Source of the DNA: an uncultured Ruminococcus sp.
GTDB taxonomy: Bacteria; Bacillota; Clostridia; Oscillospirales; Ruminococcaceae
Assembly: GCA_900318825.1 (NCBI GenBank)
Contig: ONMB01000017.1
Span: 1 to 64,000, forward strand
Length of the DNA stretch: 64,000 nt
Direction of reading: 5' to 3'
Shown: positions 33,173 to 47,529 of the stretch, in pieces
Layout of the letters: each line of letters begins with the position of its first letter
Numbering within the stretch: position 1 is the first letter of the stretch
Position numbers and translations under genes: made by a program
The notes under the pieces: generated by a model
Databases searched by the model: none
Seen by the model: only the letters and a program-made list of their open reading frames with translations
Told to the model about the DNA's origin: nothing

Positions 33173-34302
<1,130 letters not shown>

Positions 34303-34399: not shown

Positions 34400-34984
34400 T
34401 TATTCATCGCATCTGATCTCAACGCCCCATAAGGAACCTTTTATATAGCCTTCCTTATTACCGCCGTCAAAACGGAATACTACATACTTAATAGTTTTTC
34501 CGTCTGCATCTTTGAGACAGTATTTGAAGTTGGGCTCACCGGAATCCGAACCAACAGTTTCAGTCGGCTCACCATATGCAGCCTTGACTTCTTCACGGGT
34601 AGATTTGCCGATAACTATATCCTTTGCAAGCTTAGCCTCTGCATCGTTGAAGCCATAATAGCACTGCAAACATTTTACCTTGTCAGTGTCCTTTTGGTCA
34701 GTACCTACGCTTATGCAGCTGCCGTCAAGTGCAAGATTATTGTAACTTCCGCCTTTTTCAGAAGATGTCCAACCGTCATTATTCAGCGTTTTAAGTGAAC
34801 AGGGCAATGTAATTACGTTGCCGCCGAGAGAGATCTGACAGTCAAAAAGCTCGTCGCTGAGTTCAGCAGGTGCTTTCTCAGCCTCAGTTGTCTCCTCAGG
34901 CTCAGAACTTGTATCAGCCTCTGTTGCAGCATTTTCCTCTGTTGCAGCATTACCTGAAGTTGCCGCGGCGGATTTATTTCTCCG
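34400..34984 (-). pseudogene. N-terminally truncated lipoprotein-like gene
   Basis: An open frame of 194 residues with no credible start; an in-frame TAG lies at 34985-34987. The remaining sequence is a Ser/Thr/Glu/Ala-rich spacer (AATEENAATEADTSSEPEE) followed by a small domain (VIGKSTREEVKAAYGEPTE ... FDGGNKEGYIKGSLWGVEIR) like SmpA/BamE-type lipoprotein modules. It resembles an exported lipoprotein that lost its signal peptide. The breakpoint coincides with dispersed repeat copy A (34971-35019). The TTG at 34807 has no ribosome site. A +1 shift near 34972 would extend the frame a little (NSSGE), so the 5' end may also be frameshifted. Confidence 0.65.
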
Positions 34985-35019
34985 CTACTGTTGCCATTTC
35001 TGCAAATATATGGTATAAT
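34971..35019 (+). repeat. Dispersed promoter-bearing repeat, copy A (promoter of the rhodanese/PP-loop gene)
   Basis: 49-bp sequence 45/49 identical to 40524-40572 (opposite strand). It contains TTGCCA (34991-34996), 17 bp, TATAAT (35014-35019) with a TGG extension, 35 bp upstream of the 35055 start. The repeat's left end lies within the decayed lipoprotein frame. Confidence 0.8.
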
Positions 35020-35054
35020 TAATTAGTCGAATATATTGCAAACGAGGTCATAGA

Positions 35055-36179
35055 ATGAACGATCAGATCACACCTCAGGAGCTGAATAAACTCGCTCCCG
35101 AAACATATACTGTCATCGACATACGCGACCGTGCTGCTTTCAGCTACGGTCACATCAAGGGCTCTGTCAATATCCCGGCTGATGAGCTCAGGAACGCTTC
35201 CCTCCCCGAGGACAAGCTGCTCGTCATCTGCTGCAAGAGCGGTATCATAAGCGCCGATATCACAGACGAGCTCCGTGAAAAAGGTCTCAACGCCGTGAAC
35301 CTCGCCGGCGGCTATATAGACTGGCTCCGTATAAAAATGGAGAACCGCCAGATCACTGAGGACGTCGAGCTCAGTATCCGGAAAAAATTCAAGAAAACCA
35401 TATGGTGCAAGTTCACCAAGGCGATCAACGAGTACAAGCTCGTAAATCCCGGTGACCGCATCGCTGTCTGTATCTCAGGCGGCAAGGACTCCATGCTTAT
35501 GGCAAAGCTCTTTCAGGAACTCAAACGCCATGATAAGTTCCCATTTGAGGTGAAGTTCCTTGTAATGGATCCCGGTTATAGTCCCGCAAACCGCCGTCTC
35601 ATCGAAAAAAATGCCGAGTCTATGTCAATACCGATAGAGATATTCGAGTCTGACATTTTTGACTCCGTTTTCAATATTGAAAAGAACCCCTGCTATATCT
35701 GTGCGCGTATGCGCAGAGGCTACCTGTACAGCCGCGCAAAGGCTCTTGGCTGCAATAAGATTGCACTCGGTCACCACTTTGACGACGTCATCGAGACAAT
35801 TCTCATGGGTATGCTCTACGGCGGTCAGGTCCAGACTATGATGCCCAAGCTCCACAGCACAAACTTTGAGGGCATGGAGCTTATCCGTCCGCTGTACCTC
35901 GTCAGAGAGGACGAGATCAAACACTGGCGCGACTATAACGACCTCCACTTTATCCAGTGCGCCTGCAAGTTCACCGAAAACTGCACTTCCTGTGACAAGG
36001 ACGGTCAGTCAGTTTCCAAGCGTCTCGAGGTCAAAAACCTCATAGCCGATCTGAAAAAAATAAACCCTCAGGTCGAGAAGAACATATTCCGCAGTGTCGA
36101 AAACGTCAACCTCAGTACCATTATCGCCTACAAGCAGCACGGCGAAGTTCATAACTTCCTCGATACCTACGATCTCTGA
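35055..36179 (+). CDS. Rhodanese/PP-loop ATPase fusion, TtcA-like tRNA thiolation protein
   Basis: 374 aa. Residues 1-95 are a rhodanese domain with active-site loop CKSGIIS (Cys60), which can carry persulfide sulfur. Residues about 105-374 are a TtcA-like adenylating domain: PP-loop SGGKDS (141-146), CYIC (213-216), GHHFDDVIETI and later Cys residues (CACKFTENCTSC) that could bind an iron-sulfur cluster. TtcA makes 2-thiocytidine at tRNA position 32. Fusing the sulfur donor to the thiolase suggests a self-contained sulfur relay. The exact tRNA position is inferred. Driven by repeat copy A. Confidence 0.82.
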   Translation: MNDQITPQELNKLAPETYTVIDIRDRAAFSYGHIKGSVNIPADELRNASLPEDKLLVICCKSGIISADITDELREKGLNAVNLAGGYIDWLRIKMENRQITEDVELSIRKKFKKTIWCKFTKAINEYKLVNPGDRIAVCISGGKDSMLMAKLFQELKRHDKFPFEVKFLVMDPGYSPANRRLIEKNAESMSIPIEIFESDIFDSVFNIEKNPCYICARMRRGYLYSRAKALGCNKIALGHHFDDVIETILMGMLYGGQVQTMMPKLHSTNFEGMELIRPLYLVREDEIKHWRDYNDLHFIQCACKFTENCTSCDKDGQSVSKRLEVKNLIADLKKINPQVEKNIFRSVENVNLSTIIAYKQHGEVHNFLDTYDL

Positions 36180-36265
36180 TTTTCATTTTTTTCCTTTAAT
36201 AATCTTTTTTTATGAAGTCATAATACTATCACGGCATCAAAATCAATCCAAAGGAGATCAAAACA

Positions 36266-36469
36266 ATGGCAAATAATAATGGAAACAGCAACAGCGGTAC
36301 TATGACTCAGAAGGGCAGAGAGGCTCTCGAAAGATTTAAGATGGAATCAGCTTCCGAGCTCGGCGTAAACCTCAAGCAGGGCTACAACGGCGATCTCACT
36401 TCCCGTGAAGCCGGCTCTATCGGCGGACGTATGGTCCAGAAGATGATCAATTCCTATAAGATGCAGTAA
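36266..36469 (+). CDS. Small acid-soluble spore protein, alpha/beta type
   Basis: 67-aa DNA-binding SASP that protects spore DNA. After a Asn-rich start the family core is clear: a GPR protease site region (MESASELGVNL, 26-36) and the helix 2 signature LTSREAGSIGGRMVQKMI. Strong ribosome site AAAGGAG. CATAATA at 36219-36225 fits a SigF/SigG -10 (CATnnTA); no convincing -35 is seen. Its presence supports real endospore formation. Confidence 0.93.
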   Translation: MANNNGNSNSGTMTQKGREALERFKMESASELGVNLKQGYNGDLTSREAGSIGGRMVQKMINSYKMQ

Positions 36470-36487
36470 CAGACCTGCATAAAAAGA

Positions 36488-36509
36488 GGGACGCTCAGCT
36501 GAGCGTCCC
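36488..36509 (+). terminator. SASP gene terminator
   Basis: Perfect palindrome: GGGACGCTCA (36488-36497), GC, and its complement (36500-36509), then TTA. Confidence 0.8.
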
Positions 36510-36585
36510 TTATGCTATTATGTTGATTGAAGCGCCGTCCGCCTACATTTTCACAAGACGTCGCAGTCGTCGTCCCAATCAACAC

Positions 36586-36607
36586 GGGACGTCGAGGACG
36601 CCGTCCC
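36586..36607. repeat. REP-like hairpin element
   Basis: GGGACG ... CGTCCC palindrome with a GC-rich core (GAGGACGC), immediately 3' of degV. It shares the GGGACG/GGCGTCCC theme with two hairpins at 38698-38755, suggesting a dispersed intergenic repeat family. Confidence 0.5.
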
Positions 36608-37480
36608 CTACTTATTCTTTCTTCTGACAAGAACAGCTACGATATCAGGTCCGATATTCGCGGATACCACAGCGCCGATATTTCCATACATCTCAGCCTT
36701 TCTGCCGGTACGCTTGATGAGCTCCTTCTCTATCTCCTTGGCAAGAGTATCGTCTCTGCCATGAAGAATGAGGTACGGTGTCTGCGGAGTCATATTCTTC
36801 TCGGCTATCTCAACCAGCTTAGGAACGATATTCTTCTCGCCTCTGATCTTGTCAACAGTATCAGTAGTACCGTCAGCAAAGAGGATAACCGGCTTGAGTC
36901 CGAGGAGCTCTCCGGCAAAAGCCTTTGCTGCTGAGATACGTCCGGACTTTCTTGCATACTTCAGGTTATACGGAACTGCATATATACCGCATACATTGAA
37001 CCAGTCCTCAAGATATGCAACTATCTCCTCAGCCTCTGCACCCTTCTTGATACGCTTCATAGCTTCCATTATCGGGTAGCCGTAGAAAACTGTGTAGCAC
37101 TTGGAGTCGAGGTTGAAAATGCGCATTTTGTCCTTTGCTTCGGGAGTTGACTCATAGAAATCCTCCTTAGCAACGAGTGAATTGTTGTAGGTACCGGAAC
37201 CGTTTGAGTTTATAGAAACGCTGATAACGTCAGTGTAACCCTGCTCGAAAAGCTCCTTGTAAGCCTCCTCGAACCTTAACGGCGAGATCTGTGAGTGCTT
37301 CGGTATCTCGTCGGTATTGGACATTATCTCGTAAACTTCCTGCGATGACTTGTCGAATATCTCATGGAAAGTCTCTCCGCCGACTGTTACCTCAAATGGC
37401 AGTACCTTTATTCCGAGTTCTTCTATGACCTCCTTCGGAAGGTCGCAGCAGCTGTCTGTGAGTATCATTATCTTTGACAT
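36608..37480 (-). CDS. DegV family fatty-acid-binding protein
   Basis: 290-aa DegV/FakB-type protein, which binds a fatty acid for phosphorylation by FakA. N-terminal LTDSCCDLP and the lipid-site segments SVSINSNGSGTYNNS (about 92-106) and YARKSGRISAAKAF match. Ligand unknown. Start behind AAAGGAG. Confidence 0.92.
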   Translation of the reverse strand: MSKIMILTDSCCDLPKEVIEELGIKVLPFEVTVGGETFHEIFDKSSQEVYEIMSNTDEIPKHSQISPLRFEEAYKELFEQGYTDVISVSINSNGSGTYNNSLVAKEDFYESTPEAKDKMRIFNLDSKCYTVFYGYPIMEAMKRIKKGAEAEEIVAYLEDWFNVCGIYAVPYNLKYARKSGRISAAKAFAGELLGLKPVILFADGTTDTVDKIRGEKNIVPKLVEIAEKNMTPQTPYLILHGRDDTLAKEIEKELIKRTGRKAEMYGNIGAVVSANIGPDIVAVLVRRKNK

Positions 37481-37493
37481 AGTTTATTCTCCT

Positions 37494-37991
37494 TTACCAT
37501 TCATATTTTATTAGCTTTCCCTCTCGCGAAAGATCGGGGTAATCCCATTGTCTGAGTATCTCGTAAGCCGCTATGGCAACGGAATTCGAGAGGTTGAGAC
37601 TTCTCAGCTCGTTCCTCATCGGTATCCGGACGCAGCTGTCAGGATTATCGTGGAGAAGCTCCTCCGGGAGTCCCTTGTCCTCTCGCCCGAAAACTATATA
37701 GGCATTGTCAGGATACTCCACTTCACTGTGGACCTTGCGTCCCTTAGTTGTGAAATAGAAAAAATTCCCGTTTTTGTTCCTTCTGAAAAAGTCGTCGAGA
37801 CTGTCATAATAGGTCAGGTCGAGCTTGTCCCAGTAGTCGAGACCGGCACGTTTCAGATGCTTGTCCGTAACCTCGAAGCCAAGCGGTCTGACGAGATGCA
37901 GCCTTGCACCGGTGACAGCGCAGGTACGCGAGATATTCCCGGTATTCTGCGGTATCTGTGGTTCAACAAGAACGATGTTAAGATTATACAT
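37494..37991 (-). CDS. trmL: tRNA (cytidine/uridine-34-2'-O)-methyltransferase
   Basis: 165-aa SPOUT methyltransferase of the TrmL (CspR) family: VLVEPQIPQNTGNISRTCAVTGARLHLVRPLGF at the start, VFGREDKGLPEEL, and the knot-forming RIPMRNELRSLNLSNSVAIAAYEILRQ at the end. It methylates the wobble base of tRNA-Leu. Confidence 0.93.
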   Translation of the reverse strand: MYNLNIVLVEPQIPQNTGNISRTCAVTGARLHLVRPLGFEVTDKHLKRAGLDYWDKLDLTYYDSLDDFFRRNKNGNFFYFTTKGRKVHSEVEYPDNAYIVFGREDKGLPEELLHDNPDSCVRIPMRNELRSLNLSNSVAIAAYEILRQWDYPDLSREGKLIKYEW

Positions 37992-38077
37992 TTTTATCCC
38001 TCTTGTATATCAGCCGCTCATACGCACACAATAACCCCGGCAGGATACTGCCGAATACTTTTCACGGAGCGACCATT

Positions 38078-38251
38078 ATGGATATGAGATCATTTGCAAA
38101 GAGTGCGGCTGCCGGAGCAGTCGTCGGCTTTGCTTACTACGCTATTTCAGCCGCCGGTCCTGTTCAGAAATTCAGCATAAAACGCGACGCCAACAAGACT
38201 CTCAAGGCGGCAGGCCACCTGATAAGCGACCTTAAATCAGTCGTTATGTAG
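38078..38251 (+). CDS. Small one-helix membrane protein, unknown
   Basis: 57 aa from ATG 38078 with GGAG upstream: MDMRSFAKSAAAGAVVGFAYY carries a glycine/alanine helix (7-30) and then a basic amphipathic stretch (KFSIKRDANKTLKAAGHLISDLKSVV). Similar short proteins occur in clostridia with no function. Its 3' end overlaps ruvX by 8 nt. Confidence 0.62.
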   Translation: MDMRSFAKSAAAGAVVGFAYYAISAAGPVQKFSIKRDANKTLKAAGHLISDLKSVVM

Positions 38252-38675
38252 CGGATATACCGGAATTTCTCCTGTATCCGAGATAGCTCTCGAGGATAAT
38301 AGTTGCTGCGACGGCGTCAACTACGGCTTTGCGTTTCTTACCCCTTGTGTTGGTCACATTCAGGAAGTTATGCGCCGAGACCGTCGTACAGCGCTCGTCC
38401 CAGAGCTTTACGGGGCAGTCGATGAGCTCACCGAGCTTTTCCGCGAACAGCTGACACTTCTCAGCTCGTTCGCCGACTGTTCCGTTCATATTTTTCGGGT
38501 AGCCCACGACTACCTCCTCGGCTCGCTGTTCCTTTGCAAGGGCAGCGGTCTTTTTTATACATTCGTCGAAATCCTTTTCGTTGATGACTGTAACCGGCGA
38601 AGCGATCATTTCGCTCTTTCCGCAAACGGCAATGCCTGTGCGCGAGTCGCCGAAGTCAACGGACATTATTATCAT
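38244..38675 (-). CDS. ruvX: Pre-16S rRNA nuclease / Holliday junction resolvase-like protein
   Basis: 143-aa YqgF/RuvX RNase H-like protein. The conserved acidic residues are in MSVDFGDSRTGIA, the mid Glu in VVVGYPKNMNGTVGERA, and DERCTTVSAHN plus the C-terminal DAVAATIILESYL. Acts in 16S rRNA 5'-end maturation in E. coli. Confidence 0.92.
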   Translation of the reverse strand: MIIMSVDFGDSRTGIAVCGKSEMIASPVTVINEKDFDECIKKTAALAKEQRAEEVVVGYPKNMNGTVGERAEKCQLFAEKLGELIDCPVKLWDERCTTVSAHNFLNVTNTRGKKRKAVVDAVAATIILESYLGYRRNSGISAT

Positions 38676-38697
38676 AATTTTTTCCTTTTATTGCAGG

Positions 38698-38755
38698 GGA
38701 CGGCGTCCCATTACATATTAATCGTTCAAAACGGAACGCCGGTGACGGCGTTCCC
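38698..38755. repeat. Two REP-like hairpins between pyrD and ruvX
   Basis: GGGACG-G-CGTCCC at about 38698-38711 and GGAACGCCG / CGGCGTTCC with loop GTGA at about 38733-38754, both GC-rich and edged by CTAC/GTAG-like bases as at 36586. No T-run on either strand, so a terminator role is doubtful. Likely dispersed repeats. Confidence 0.6.
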
Positions 38756-38769
38756 TACAAGCTAACGGT

Positions 38770-39684
38770 TCAAGTCCACGGCTTTACAGTGCCGATGATG
38801 TCGCGGACGGAAGCGATGCCCTTGCTGTCGAGGAATTCGTTCATCTCCTCAACAATGCGTACCGGCGCATAGGGATCGGTGAAGATAGCCGCTCCGACCT
38901 GAACTGCGCTCGCACCTGCCATCATAAGCTCGATAGCGTCGCGTCCGGAGGAGACTCCGCCCATACCGATGACCGGTATCTTGACAGCGTTTGCTACCTG
39001 CCATACCATGCGCACGGCTATCGGGAATACCGCCGGACCACTCATACCGCCGACATTGTTGCGGAGTATCGGACGTCCGGTATTTATGTCTATCCTCATT
39101 CCGAGGAGAGTATTTATCAGCGAAACCGCGTCAGCACCGGCAGCCTCGACAGACTTTGCGATGTCAGCGATGCTCGTAACATTCGGCGAGAGCTTTACCA
39201 CAAGGGGCTTGGTTGTGACCTTGCGAACCTGACGTGTCACCTCAGCAGCCATTTCGCAGCTTGTTCCGAAAGCAGCTCCGCCCTGCTTGACGTTCGGGCA
39301 GGAGATGTTGAGCTCTATCATATGAACGTCGGTAGCTTCGAGCTTTTCAGCTACCTGCGCACATTCCTCCGGAGTCGAGCCGGCAATATTTGCAAGGACT
39401 ACAAGATCCTTCGTGAGCAGATACGGCAGCTCAGTCTCTATAAAATGGTCGATACCGGGGTTCTGAAGTCCGACCGAGTTGAGCATACCCGAGGGAGTCT
39501 CGGCAATTCTCGGAGCGAGGTTGCCTGTTCTTAGGTGGAGGGTAGTTCCCTTTGTAGCGATACCGCCGAGCTTATCGAGCGGGAAGAGCTCCTCGTATTC
39601 CCTGCCGTAGCCGAACACGCCGGAAGCCGGGATTATCGGGTTTTTAAAGTCTACGCCGCAGACTTTTACAGAAAGATCAGCCAT
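38770..39684 (-). CDS. pyrD: Dihydroorotate dehydrogenase, class 1B catalytic subunit
   Basis: 304-aa FMN enzyme oxidising dihydroorotate to orotate in pyrimidine synthesis. IIPASGVFGYG, LNISCPNVKQGG (catalytic-base Cys), SPNVTSI and GMGGVSSGRDAIELMMAGASAVQVG are typical. The Cys in place of Ser and the neighbouring pyrK show the NAD-dependent 1B heterotetramer. Confidence 0.95.
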   Translation of the reverse strand: MADLSVKVCGVDFKNPIIPASGVFGYGREYEELFPLDKLGGIATKGTTLHLRTGNLAPRIAETPSGMLNSVGLQNPGIDHFIETELPYLLTKDLVVLANIAGSTPEECAQVAEKLEATDVHMIELNISCPNVKQGGAAFGTSCEMAAEVTRQVRKVTTKPLVVKLSPNVTSIADIAKSVEAAGADAVSLINTLLGMRIDINTGRPILRNNVGGMSGPAVFPIAVRMVWQVANAVKIPVIGMGGVSSGRDAIELMMAGASAVQVGAAIFTDPYAPVRIVEEMNEFLDSKGIASVRDIIGTVKPWT

Positions 39685-40454
39685 TACCAGAGCACCTCCT
39701 CAGCCTTGAATACGGGGCCGTCCTTACAGACATGCGCGAAATATTCCTCGTCGTTTCTCACAGTGCGGCAGGCACAGCCGAGACACGCACCGATACCGCA
39801 AGCCATTCTCTCCTCAAGCGAGATCTCGCAGAAGACGCCGTTTTCTTTACATATAGCCGCAACACCCTTTAGCATGGGCATAGGACCGCAGGCGTAAACT
39901 GCTCCGATACCGCTCTTTGCAGCAAGCTCCCTGAGCGACTCGGTAACAAAACCGTGTATGCCGGCAGAACCGTCGTCCGTACAGAGTATAGTCTCAGCGC
40001 CGGTCTTTTTGAAATCGTCCTGGAGTATCACCGCAGAAGCGTTCCTGAAGCCGCTTATCACAGTGGCATTTCCGCCGTATATCTGTGCAAGAGGCAGCAT
40101 AGGAGGAGTACCGATACCGCCGCCGATAAGAACGACCTTTCCGAAGCTGCTGTCAACCGTGAAGCCGTGACCGAGAGGCGCAAGCATATCCACAAGGTCA
40201 CCCTCGTTGAGCTTGGCTATCTCGGCAGTTCCCTCGCCGCGTATCTCGAACACGATGCGGAGAGTACCCTTTTCCTTGTCAATACCGCAGATAGATATAG
40301 GTCTGCGGAGAGTGAAGCCGTTTGCCCTGATGTGGACGAACTGTCCCGGCTGAGCGACCTCAGCAACTTCAGGACATTGTATCGTGAAGCTGTATATTTC
40401 TTTTGCTATGGCAGTTTTCCGGGTTATTATGTATTTCCCCTGAGTATATTTCAT
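39684..40454 (-). CDS. pyrK: Dihydroorotate dehydrogenase electron transfer subunit
   Basis: 256-aa FAD/[2Fe-2S] protein passing electrons from PyrD to NAD. FAD site LRRPISICGID, the NAD-domain GGGIGTPPMLPLA, and cluster cysteines in MACGIGACLGCACRT...HVCKDGP. Start at 40454 (MKYTQGKY) follows AGGAGGT; an 11-residue longer frame is rejected. Overlaps pyrD by one base. The promoter is repeat copy B. Confidence 0.94.
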   Translation of the reverse strand: MKYTQGKYIITRKTAIAKEIYSFTIQCPEVAEVAQPGQFVHIRANGFTLRRPISICGIDKEKGTLRIVFEIRGEGTAEIAKLNEGDLVDMLAPLGHGFTVDSSFGKVVLIGGGIGTPPMLPLAQIYGGNATVISGFRNASAVILQDDFKKTGAETILCTDDGSAGIHGFVTESLRELAAKSGIGAVYACGPMPMLKGVAAICKENGVFCEISLEERMACGIGACLGCACRTVRNDEEYFAHVCKDGPVFKAEEVLW

Positions 40455-40523
40455 AGCTACCTCCTGTACGCCAATATTTCCTGTCAATTATATCGTAAGA
40501 TAAATATAATGTGGTTTGCATTC

Positions 40524-40572
40524 ATTATACCACATTTTTGCAGAAATAGCAACAGTCGCGGAGAAATAAATC
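40524..40572 (-). repeat. Dispersed promoter-bearing repeat, copy B (pyrK promoter)
   Basis: On the minus strand this 49-bp element holds TTGCTA, a 17-bp spacer and TATAAT (40524-40529) with TGG extension, and gives pyrK a ~65-nt leader. 45 of 49 bases equal copy A. Confidence 0.82.
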
Positions 40573-40619
40573 AGCAGTATTCATGTATAGCGCGAACAAG
40601 GCTGCGCGGACTCCGCGCC

Positions 40620-40649
40620 TATACCACATTTTTGCAGGAATAGCAGCAG
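40620..40649 (-). repeat. Partial copy C of the promoter-bearing repeat
   Basis: 30 bp, about 95 bp from copy B in the same orientation, 28/30 identical to it, but truncated at TATA so the -10 is lost. A GC-rich hairpin (GGCGCGGA/TCCGCGC) separates the two. Confidence 0.7.
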
Positions 40650-43089: not shown

Positions 43090-43118
43090 TTGCTATTTTT
43101 CAACTTTTATGGTATAAT
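43090..43118 (+). promoter_or_regulatory. Promoter of the cysteine hydrolase gene, similar to the dispersed repeat
   Basis: TTGCTA (43090-43095), 17 bp, TATAAT (43113-43118) with TGG extension. From -35 to -10 it shares about 20 of 29 bases with repeat copy B, including the unusual TTGCTATTT start. Confidence 0.75.
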
Positions 43119-43180: not shown

Positions 43181-43702
43181 ATGAAACCAGCTCTTCTCGT
43201 CATTGATATGCAGAACGACTACCTTTACGAAAAAAGAAAGCCGAAGTTCAGCTATGATACCCCGGCTCTCACCGCCGCTGTCAACAAGCTGATACACAAG
43301 TACCACGACGACGGCTGTGACGTCATCTACATACGCCACATAATCCAAAACCTCCCTACAAACCGCCTGCTGTTCGGCTTTTCGATAGCCGGTACAGAGG
43401 GCGCGGAGCTTTACGGCGGACTCGATATCGTCTCCGACTACTGCTTCGACAAGCTGCTCGGTGACGCACTCACCAACAAGGAGCTCCTCGCTATGATACA
43501 GCAGAAGGGCTACGAAGCTCTGCACATCTGCGGCCTTGACGAATGCGGCTGCGTGACCTCAACAGCTCTCGGTGCTGCAAAGAGAGGTTTCCGCGCCGAG
43601 ATAATCCGCAGCGGCACTGTCTCGGTATTTCCCGAAAAGAAGATCGCCAAAGCCCGCGCAAAACTCGAAAAAGCCGGCGTCACTTTCATCGACGTCACTT
43701 GA
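43181..43702 (+). CDS. Isochorismatase-family cysteine hydrolase
   Basis: 173 aa. Catalytic triad: Asp in LLVIDMQNDY (Asp9), the mid Lys region, and Cys in LHICGLDECGCVTSTALGA. The family includes nicotinamidases and isochorismatases; a metal-binding DxHxxxxH of nicotinamidases is not seen, so the substrate is open. ATG 43181 follows AGGAGG. Confidence 0.87.
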   Translation: MKPALLVIDMQNDYLYEKRKPKFSYDTPALTAAVNKLIHKYHDDGCDVIYIRHIIQNLPTNRLLFGFSIAGTEGAELYGGLDIVSDYCFDKLLGDALTNKELLAMIQQKGYEALHICGLDECGCVTSTALGAAKRGFRAEIIRSGTVSVFPEKKIAKARAKLEKAGVTFIDVT

Positions 43703-45687: not shown

Positions 45688-47430
45688 TTATCTTGCAAGG
45701 AAAACAAGCCTCTTCAAGAGTATAACATCAAAAACATTTACTCTGCCGTCGCCGGTCACATCGCAAGACATATCGTATTCACCTCTTCCGAGTACGACTC
45801 TCACGCAGCTGATAACATCTGCGATGCTCACCTCGCCGTCACAGTTCACATCACCCTCCATGTACTCCCAGCTAAAAGTTGTAGGCTCGGTAGTAACTTC
45901 GGTTTGCGTTGTGTTCTCGGTAACCGTTGTGGTGAGCTCTGTTGTAGTCTCGGGAACCGTCGTAGTGAGCTCTGTCGTAGTCTCGGAAACCGTCGTAGTG
46001 AGCTCTGTCGTAGTCTCGGGAACTGTCGTTGTGAGCTCTGTCGTAGTCTCGGGAACTGTCGTTGTGAGCTCTGTTGTAGTCTCGGGAACTGTCGTTGTGA
46101 GCTCTGTTGTAGGCTCAGGCTCAGTAGTTGTAGCCTCTGTTGTAGTCGTTGTGGTAGTCTCTTCTGTTGTGGTCGTTGTTGTGCTCGTAGTAGTCTCTTC
46201 AGTAGTTGTTGTCTCAGCAATTGTAGTTGTTACATAATATGAAAGAGGATCGAAATCATTCTCAGAAAGCGTCGGGTACTGGAGGTAGGTTATACCGTAA
46301 TCCGGATCGGGATAGTGCTTTACGTTATTCTTGGAGCCCTTGAGGAAATACTTGTAATAAACCTCTCTGCCGTTTACGCCGTCACAGTCGTCCCATGTAA
46401 CATCAACGCTGTACCAGTTGCCGTCCTCCATCTGGACGTAATTCCACATATGACCAGCTTGTGTATCCTCGTCAAAGTTTCCGAAAACGCATACACACGG
46501 TATGTCAAGACGGTCACAGATGAGCTTGAAGGCTTCTGCGTAGCCCTCACAGACTACCGGAGGAGTTACTATTGCTCCGATAGGTGTGGACATGAAAGGC
46601 GACTCAAAGTCATTGTCATAGCTGGTATAATAGGATATCTCATCGTGAATCTGCTTGAGCATATCGTAGCGTGTTCCCTGCTCGGGGAGCATACGTTCAA
46701 CAGCCTGTTCGAGCTGTTCACGGTAGTTGTTGATATTGTCAAGAGCATAATTGGTATCGCTATTCAGCGAACCGAACGCTTCATAACAGTCATAATTAAT
46801 GGTAACTGAGTTTACAGTAAGAGAGTATTTTTTATGTCCCTGCATAACTTCCCAATAATTATTGGAAACTAACTTAGCATTCTTGAGACCAAGTGATATC
46901 TTGGAAGGATCTATCCAGAAAAGCTCAGGTATATCAAGCATAGCGGAGTCCATACCCGGTTTGCATTCAGCCCATAGCAAGTCGAACAATTCATTCTGTT
47001 CATCGTCAGAAATGCTTCTGCTGCTTACTTCAACACTGACGGTAGAATCAAGTGCGATGCCGAAAGAGCCTATACCTTCATCACTGACAGCAGTCGGAGC
47101 GATGAGTTCTGAAAACTTGTTGTAGACCTTTTCGTTTGTACCGGTCAGGAAGTCGCCGTAGCGGTATGCACCGATGTTGTTGTTGACAAGTACATCAGGT
47201 CTCTTAGGCATAAGAGATGACAGGTCGATAGCCTCGTCATAGCTCATAGTAAGCTCGTCCACATCACCTGTTCCATTGCTGCCGTTAATGAGTTCCGAAA
47301 CCGCTTCGCTCAGAGTTCCCCCATCTGAAGCAACAGTTACTTCGGAAGCCGCAGCTGTAAAGGCAAACTCACCCGCACCAAGAGTTACCGTAAACACACA
47401 AGATAAAAATAATGAGAATACTTTTTTCAT
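45688..47430 (-). CDS. Secreted transglutaminase-like protein with C-terminal type I dockerin
   Basis: 580 aa. Signal peptide 1-29 (start 47430 after GGAGGAA). The transglutaminase-like core has Cys in VVCEGYAEAFKLICDRL, His in AGHMWNYVQ and Asp in YSVDVTWDD. A Thr-rich linker with 11-residue repeats (VPETTTELTTT) follows. The last ~55 residues are a type I dockerin with two calcium loops (GDVNCDGEVSIADVISCVRV and CDVTGDGRVNVFDVILLKRL). The protein should dock on a cohesin-bearing scaffoldin, so a cellulosome-like system is expected elsewhere in the genome. The core may be a protease or cross-linker; the target is unknown. Confidence 0.92.
   Translation of the reverse strand: MKKVFSLFLSCVFTVTLGAGEFAFTAAASEVTVASDGGTLSEAVSELINGSNGTGDVDELTMSYDEAIDLSSLMPKRPDVLVNNNIGAYRYGDFLTGTNEKVYNKFSELIAPTAVSDEGIGSFGIALDSTVSVEVSSRSISDDEQNELFDLLWAECKPGMDSAMLDIPELFWIDPSKISLGLKNAKLVSNNYWEVMQGHKKYSLTVNSVTINYDCYEAFGSLNSDTNYALDNINNYREQLEQAVERMLPEQGTRYDMLKQIHDEISYYTSYDNDFESPFMSTPIGAIVTPPVVCEGYAEAFKLICDRLDIPCVCVFGNFDEDTQAGHMWNYVQMEDGNWYSVDVTWDDCDGVNGREVYYKYFLKGSKNNVKHYPDPDYGITYLQYPTLSENDFDPLSYYVTTTIAETTTTEETTTSTTTTTTEETTTTTTTEATTTEPEPTTELTTTVPETTTELTTTVPETTTELTTTVPETTTELTTTVSETTTELTTTVPETTTELTTTVTENTTQTEVTTEPTTFSWEYMEGDVNCDGEVSIADVISCVRVVLGRGEYDMSCDVTGDGRVNVFDVILLKRLVFLAR
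45920..46115 (-). repeat. 33-bp tandem repeats in the dockerin protein linker
   Basis: Six GAGCTC sites spaced exactly 33 bp apart (45934, 45967, 46000, 46033, 46066, 46099) mark the units, which encode VPETTTELTTT with one Pro-to-Ser change. Copies are near-identical, so copy number is likely variable. Confidence 0.93.
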
Positions 47431-47529
47431 AACGATTCCTCCGTTTCCAAAACAATATTCCCTATCCCCTGATATATATCTATATTCGGTATTCATATAC
47501 CTTGATGTACTTCCCCGTACTATAAATAT

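Follow-up and report, generated by a model that had tools for sequence, protein, structure and literature searches.

Matus-Garcia and colleagues reportedly described in 2012 putative mobile promoters, stretches of 50-100 bp of promoter DNA that recur almost unchanged ahead of unrelated genes within a genome, and van Passel and colleagues are said to have reported on putative mobile promoters in 2014 (cited in PMC4261585). Correia elements and promoter-carrying miniature inverted-repeat transposable elements (MITEs) are non-coding and multi-copy, with sigma-70-like promoters able to serve neighbouring genes (PMC10969869). The STAR elements of staphylococci are described as a 14-bp core with spacers and with no described function; they are intergenic, occupy species-specific places, expand and contract at a locus and spread in an unknown mode (PMC3532100). 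The REP/REPIN-RAYT systems comprise dispersed, hairpin-forming repeats of high copy number with local amplification (PMC8049555). Here, we analysed a window of 64,000 nucleotides from an uncultured Ruminococcus sp. (assembly GCA_900318825.1, contig ONMB01000017.1, positions 1 to 64,000), in which an initial annotation had noticed a dispersed 49-bp repeat that carries a promoter ahead of two unrelated genes. These two promoters are members of a family of short palindrome-plus-promoter modules that stand, singly or in tandem, before unrelated genes of Ruminococcus, a genus of rumen and gut bacteria.

The stretches at 34971-35019 on the plus strand (copy A) and 40524-40572 on the minus strand (copy B) were identical at 45 of 49 bases in an ungapped scan of the window, which bears out the agreement first reported. 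The next-best matches were two other sites that the same annotation had named (32-36 of 49), and the remaining listed matches reached at most 29; from base composition about 2e-13 such pairs would be expected in the window. Chance or a bare promoter consensus as the cause of the match was ruled out by the window scan. The extent of 49 bp needed revision, since homology of copy B continues over all 94 positions of a family model (40618-40525, 89 bits). Positions 40620-40649, taken for a third partial copy, are in fact an upstream promoter, P0, which is the recipient of the unit: its -10 region, TATAGG, runs on into the palindrome of copy B, and the 17 bases TGCAAAAATGTGGTATA are common to P0 and to the promoter at the end of the unit, P1. 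The proposed -35 and -10 elements are present in both copies ahead of the rhodanese/PP-loop gene and pyrK, whose transcription they may drive. Copy A matched the whole-unit model weakly, and so did the site at 43090-43118; the latter had been called a diverged relative, and it does belong to the 24 exact-core promoters mentioned below, while as a whole unit it scores a weak 30 bits.

A full unit is 94-95 bp long and consists of a 15-bp palindrome, a CGCGG...CCGCG stem and a sigma-A-like promoter of the form TTGCTATTT..TRTGNTATAA. Since it directly abuts the -10 of the promoter upstream, units stack in tandem with a period of 94/95 bp. In the source genome, a 2.02-Mb draft that is 84% complete, the core TTGCTATTT-N(10-16)-TATAAT occurred exactly 24 times, with no occurrence in a reversed-pattern control. 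A palindrome like GCGCGGAGTCCGCGC followed by GCCTTGTTCGCG was found with at most three mismatches at six places (C31, C35, which is copy B, C44, C20 and twice C29), mostly right behind an upstream -10. The first 18 examples, which come from three genomes, measure 94-97 bp from palindrome to TATAA; an additional start had no recognisable end. From the alignment of these examples (A1) a covariance model was built for the family searches, and it matched the source genome at 40 places with E<=1, nine of them above 50 bits.

The 122 distinct arrays in fetched DNA, a non-random sample made up of best matches and fetched loci, held one unit (73 arrays), two (36), three (11) or four (2). Full units were 94 or 95 bp long in 117 of 144 cases, and 72 of the 122 arrays lay directly behind a -10-like TATAA. 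The 6-bp stem of the palindrome was perfect in 88% of 153 units compared with 21% when the arms were shuffled, and in 50% compared with 10% among the 32 distinct 15-mers. Stems occur as GCGCGG, GCGGCG, GCGGGG, GCGCAG, GCGGAG and other variants around the near-invariant centre GWGYC and outer GC...GC. An open reading frame (ORF) start preceded by a ribosome-binding site was present within 150 bp downstream of 76 of the 97 arrays with full flanks, as against 26 in divergent orientation upstream and 30 in a within-gene control; under a looser test of ORF starts the counts were 107 of 112 arrays downstream and 72 of 112 in divergent orientation. No Met-initiated open stretch in the arrays exceeds 68 codons, and this longest one was not considered a gene. 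Judged by eye, the products of other unit-preceded genes in the source genome seem to include membrane proteins as well as a secreted protein and a sigma factor.

Two observations concern the palindrome itself. At three loci (L207, which lies in G077, a genome whose positions equal those of G062, probably USPA_maxbin.103; L146; and L314) the terminator hairpin of the upstream gene was seen by eye at the palindrome position, either in the first unit of an array or in an empty site. The unit may have originated as a terminator-promoter pair. At four loci of G009, probably RGIG6790 (L122, L119, L130 and L051), a second 14-bp palindrome, gcggcgtgtcgccg, immediately precedes the unit's own, so that a hairpin may be acquired independently of the rest of the unit.

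Comparison of close relatives revealed differences in both the number and the presence of units. One locus carries two units (188 bp) in R. flavefaciens ND2009, whereas RGIG6044 and SAb67 have a single unit there (94 bp; flanks 89-97%). At another, RGIG6044 has three units (288 bp) compared with two (193 bp) in ND2009 (flanks 89% and 77%). The number of tandem units thus varies at one locus between relatives in two cases, as in STAR elements. L259 and L242 were not located by anchor in this comparison, and L245 lies in G076 (probably SAb67). A presumed loss of a unit between L259 and L157 was dropped, as the array begins its contig and only 63 bp match on the left. For filled and empty sites, six loci (A-F) of G060 (probably RGIG6044) or G064 (probably ND2009) were selected for which no array of a relative was found to match both flanks, and the upstream regions were compared by eye. 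Three of them, C, D and E, gave clean pairs. At locus C, ND2009 has one unit and USPA (95%), SAb67 and RGIG6044 (79-81%) have none. Locus D has one unit in RGIG6044 and none in SAb67 (99%), ND2009 and USPA (93%) or G066 (81%); G051 has one unit there and G019 at least two. At locus E, RGIG6044 has two units and G019 (69%) one, with none in SAb67, USPA and ND2009 (92-96%) or G051 (75%). By eye, the gene-proximal promoter at C and D matches that of the empty site, with a foreign promoter upstream, and at E the local promoter is present on both sides of the unit. Loci A, B and F vary too, with units at each of them in SAb67, at A in USPA and at none in ND2009; their upstream flanks aligned too poorly, and these loci were left out of the clean pairs. 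All 60 genus genomes have a PyrK homolog, which in 52 reaches at least 71% identity, and a strong unit preceded the gene at 2 of 30 fetched loci, those of the source genome and G060 (86-89 bits), the others scoring at most 25 bits (one of the 30, L179, contains no upstream DNA).

Further copies are therefore present in the genome and in its relatives, ahead of unrelated genes, and orthologous sites exist in both filled and empty states. Neither outcome that the initial annotation had named as refuting its idea, a lack of further copies or orthologous loci alike by descent with no trace of insertion, was observed. The suggestion of a small mobile or recombining promoter cassette is right in essence and is supported as far as extra copies and filled and empty sites are concerned; its extent is not supported, and nothing points to a classic mobile element with terminal inverted repeats. 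"Recombining" fits the units better than "mobile".

We favour, with somewhat better than even confidence, a genus-wide family of non-coding units that spreads by recombination through shared promoter blocks, accompanied by local gain and loss. Spacers of neighbouring promoters in one array had a similarity of 0.76 compared with 0.53 between arrays, and similarity at the palindrome end was 0.79-0.87 between loci of one genome and 0.73 between genomes; these values indicate that the palindrome half is common to loci and that the promoter half is largely local. Together with the differing breakpoints at loci C-E, we read this half-wise sharing as recombination via promoter blocks plus local slippage. 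As the first unit mostly sits just past an existing TRTGNTATAA -10, an added unit leaves a promoter on either side, one of them by the gene. New genes would be reached via ectopic recombination or template switching at the blocks CCGCG..TTGC and TRTGNTATAA, slippage or unequal exchange between tandem copies would add or remove units locally, and copies might subsequently convert each other. The gene-proximal promoter would then be the active one, and those upstream would be weakened or held in reserve, with the GC-rich palindrome at their would-be start site. That the units act as promoters at all is inferred from sequence and position.

Several findings weigh against this explanation. Many recipient promoters share just TRTGNTATAA with the unit, which is short for homologous recombination, and a CCGCG-like block before the -35 was present in only 33 of 68. 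At a third variable locus the length differences among three genomes, 91, 124 and 34 bp, do not correspond to whole units, and at least five further orthologous array pairs are equal or almost equal in length. Draft short-read assemblies may also misplace repeats. Finally, the base N of TGNTATAA was the same on both sides in 15 of 22 cases with unrelated spacers, compared with 11.4 in shuffles within genomes (p 0.047), which hints weakly at a short duplication of the target. As regards a target duplication of the MITE type, with a set length, TRTGNTATAA stands at both edges of the unit and N agrees in these 15 of 22 low-identity cases; the breakpoints differ at C-E.

The same hint counts for a different mechanism, which we regard as possible and still unlikely, in which an unrecognised transposase reads the hairpin, perhaps single-stranded as in IS200/IS605 or REP/RAYT elements, and inserts the unit 3' of TRTGNTATAA; the right end of the unit being the same target, tandem stacking would follow. 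The covarying palindrome with its conserved GWGYC centre, the identical left junction at many loci, the recipient promoters sharing only TRTGNTATAA with the unit, and the existence of filled and empty sites all agree with such an enzyme, and a Y1 transposase is encoded in the carriers G054 (probably YRD2003), G062, G019 and G066. However, the Y1 transposase (PF01797) was not found in 7 of 11 carriers (G000, G009, G060, G064, G008, G004 and G075), of which G009, G060 and G064 are among the richest in unit matches, whereas it is present in G061, G048 and G047, which have no unit matches. This survey covered PF01797 only, in draft genomes, and loss after spread is possible. Terminal inverted repeats are likewise absent, with a mean of 1.46 of 15 matching positions in 144 full units compared with 1.78 after shuffling, and the foreign promoter at loci C and D lies upstream, contrary to the arrangement expected from such insertion. 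By the same count, the classic MITE was rejected. A more speculative idea, to which we give no greater credence, is a self-spreading promoter: the unit would fold as single-stranded DNA by means of its covarying palindrome, the replication fork or some unrecognised enzyme of the host would copy it into other extended -10 boxes, and arrays of fixed phase (94 bp being about nine helical turns) would tune expression by copy number across the genus.

An ordinary regulon, in which the palindrome is the binding site of a single regulator and promoter similarity reflects shared regulation and descent with no spread of DNA, would explain why units precede genes and why the promoter core is strongly conserved. 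It is very improbable and already disfavoured, given that the palindrome sequence varies with pairing kept inside single genomes, that the downstream genes are unrelated (by Pfam, others by eye), that near relatives have orthologous promoters without the unit, and that pyrK has a strong unit at so few of the loci fetched. Least probable of all is a family of structured RNAs or attenuators with an incidental promoter, for although a two-helix structure pairs 94% of cells in A1 compared with no more than 55% when slid, both partners vary in only two pairs, not above shuffles, helix 2 is without covariation in A1, the folding energies of four units relative to shuffles are inconsistent (z 0.11, -0.72, -1.36 and -2.40), and transcription from the preceding promoter would begin within the palindrome. 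A known Rfam family was not found either in the window or in the unit at seven array loci, where a tRNA was the only match.

Set against the described systems, the unit behaves both as a mobile promoter and as an intergenic repeat of variable number would, and lacks defining features of MITEs and REP/RAYT elements that were looked for. Like mobile promoters, it is near-identical promoter DNA before unrelated genes, from which transcription is predicted to start; unlike these, it forms tandem arrays with a fixed period of 94 bp, its palindrome covaries and its junction at the -10 is defined. With Correia elements and MITEs it shares non-coding character, many copies and a sigma-70-like promoter; it differs in lacking terminal inverted repeats, in that the promoter is the unit's own end and in stacking in tandem. 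The description of STAR elements corresponds to the intergenic position and variable number of the units, each of which, in contrast, contains a full promoter aimed at a gene; the 14-bp STAR core consensus, as given there, was not seen by eye in alignment A1. A hairpin near the end, with its frequently perfect 6-bp stem, resembles REP/REPIN-RAYT or IS200/IS605-derived elements, and dispersal at high copy number with local amplification is shared with the former, but the lack of a detected Y1 transposase in seven carriers, including the four richest bar G062, sets the units apart, and a reading as Y1-type REP elements is not supported. In a full-text literature search, with most subscription papers outside its scope, no description of the unit was recognised among the entries listed.

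The family appears to be confined largely to the genus. Matches at E<=0.01 were obtained in 35 of 60 genus genomes, the source included, with at least 69 in the richest. All copy numbers are lower bounds, since at most 70 candidates per genome were scored in this search, and at most 14 in a search of the order, under strict filters. When 295 genomes were drawn from the order, matches at E<=1e-4 were found only in the source genome and one other of the same genus, and none in the 293 others among the up to 14 candidates scored in each. A scan of named genomes yielded 75 stretches, many of them in Ruminococcus flavefaciens SAb67, ND2009, YRD2003, ATCC 19208 and YL228. The count of bare cores tracks that of units (Spearman 0.78, 60 genomes): cores averaged 18 (range 1-42) in 13 genomes with at least ten unit matches and 1.3 (at most 3) in 25 genomes without any, and 47 genomes from outside the genus had 13 in total by hand count. 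Locus L222, from a record labelled 'Alistipes sp. NALB_7813_19', resembles the C44 locus of the source genome on both flanks (75% DNA identity), and this label is probably wrong. The four-unit array L141, the only one queried, had no match in plasmid or phage collections. These data point to a possible route for the duplication and swapping of promoters between genes in Ruminococcus, including the fibre degrader R. flavefaciens. Zero to several units at one gene among close relatives form a natural allelic series, usable for studying the spread of promoter DNA without an obvious transposase and the effect of copy number on expression.

Table 1. Unit copies, putative promoters of the class and downstream genes in the window.
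Feature	Position	Strand	Basis
Copy B: complete unit of 94 bp with palindrome, stem region and putative promoter	40525..40618	minus	family model R1 positions 1-94, 89.3 bits
Copy B palindrome GCGCGGAGTCCGCGC	40604..40618	minus	sequence reading; stem family-wide
Copy B putative promoter P1: -35 TTGCTA 40552-40547, 17-bp spacer, extended -10 TATAAT 40529-40524	40524..40552	minus	
Putative promoter P0 upstream of the copy B unit, CTGCTA-17-TATAGG	40618..40646	minus	
Copy A: putative single promoter of the class with the unit's right half, TTGCCA-17-TATAAT	34971..35019	plus	whole-unit model, 32 bits
Copy A -35	34991-34996	plus	
Copy A extended -10	35014-35019	plus	
Putative single promoter of the class, TTGCTATTT..TATAAT	43090..43118	plus	whole-unit model, 30 bits
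Gene after copy B: PyrK-like (electron transfer subunit of dihydroorotate dehydrogenase)	39684..40454	minus	Pfam DHODB_Fe-S_bind, FAD_binding_6
Gene after copy A: rhodanese and PP-loop protein	35055..36179	plus	Pfam Rhodanese, ATP_bind_3
Gene after 43090: isochorismatase-domain protein	43181..43702	plus	Pfam Isochorismatase

The distance from promoter to next ATG is about 35 bp for copy A and about 70 bp for copy B, the start codon of the PyrK-like gene having been read from the sequence. On the other side of copy A, a divergent ORF (34400-34984, minus strand) is open into the left edge of the copy, without start codon or signal peptide (RRNKSAAATSG...). It had no homolog in the fetched loci and only Pfam matches below the cut-off; it looks like a secreted-protein gene truncated at its 5' end where the repeat starts, and it may mark the break from the arrival of copy A. 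Two repeats of other kinds were noticed. A perfect 26-bp tandem duplication at 33353-33404, inside a gene that by eye looks GAPDH-like, splits the ORF into 33194-33460 and 33382-34302 and is either a frameshift or an assembly fault. A protein encoded at 45688-47496 (minus strand), which by eye ends in a dockerin-like domain, has a Thr-rich linker specified by about seven repeats of 33 bp (45908-46147).

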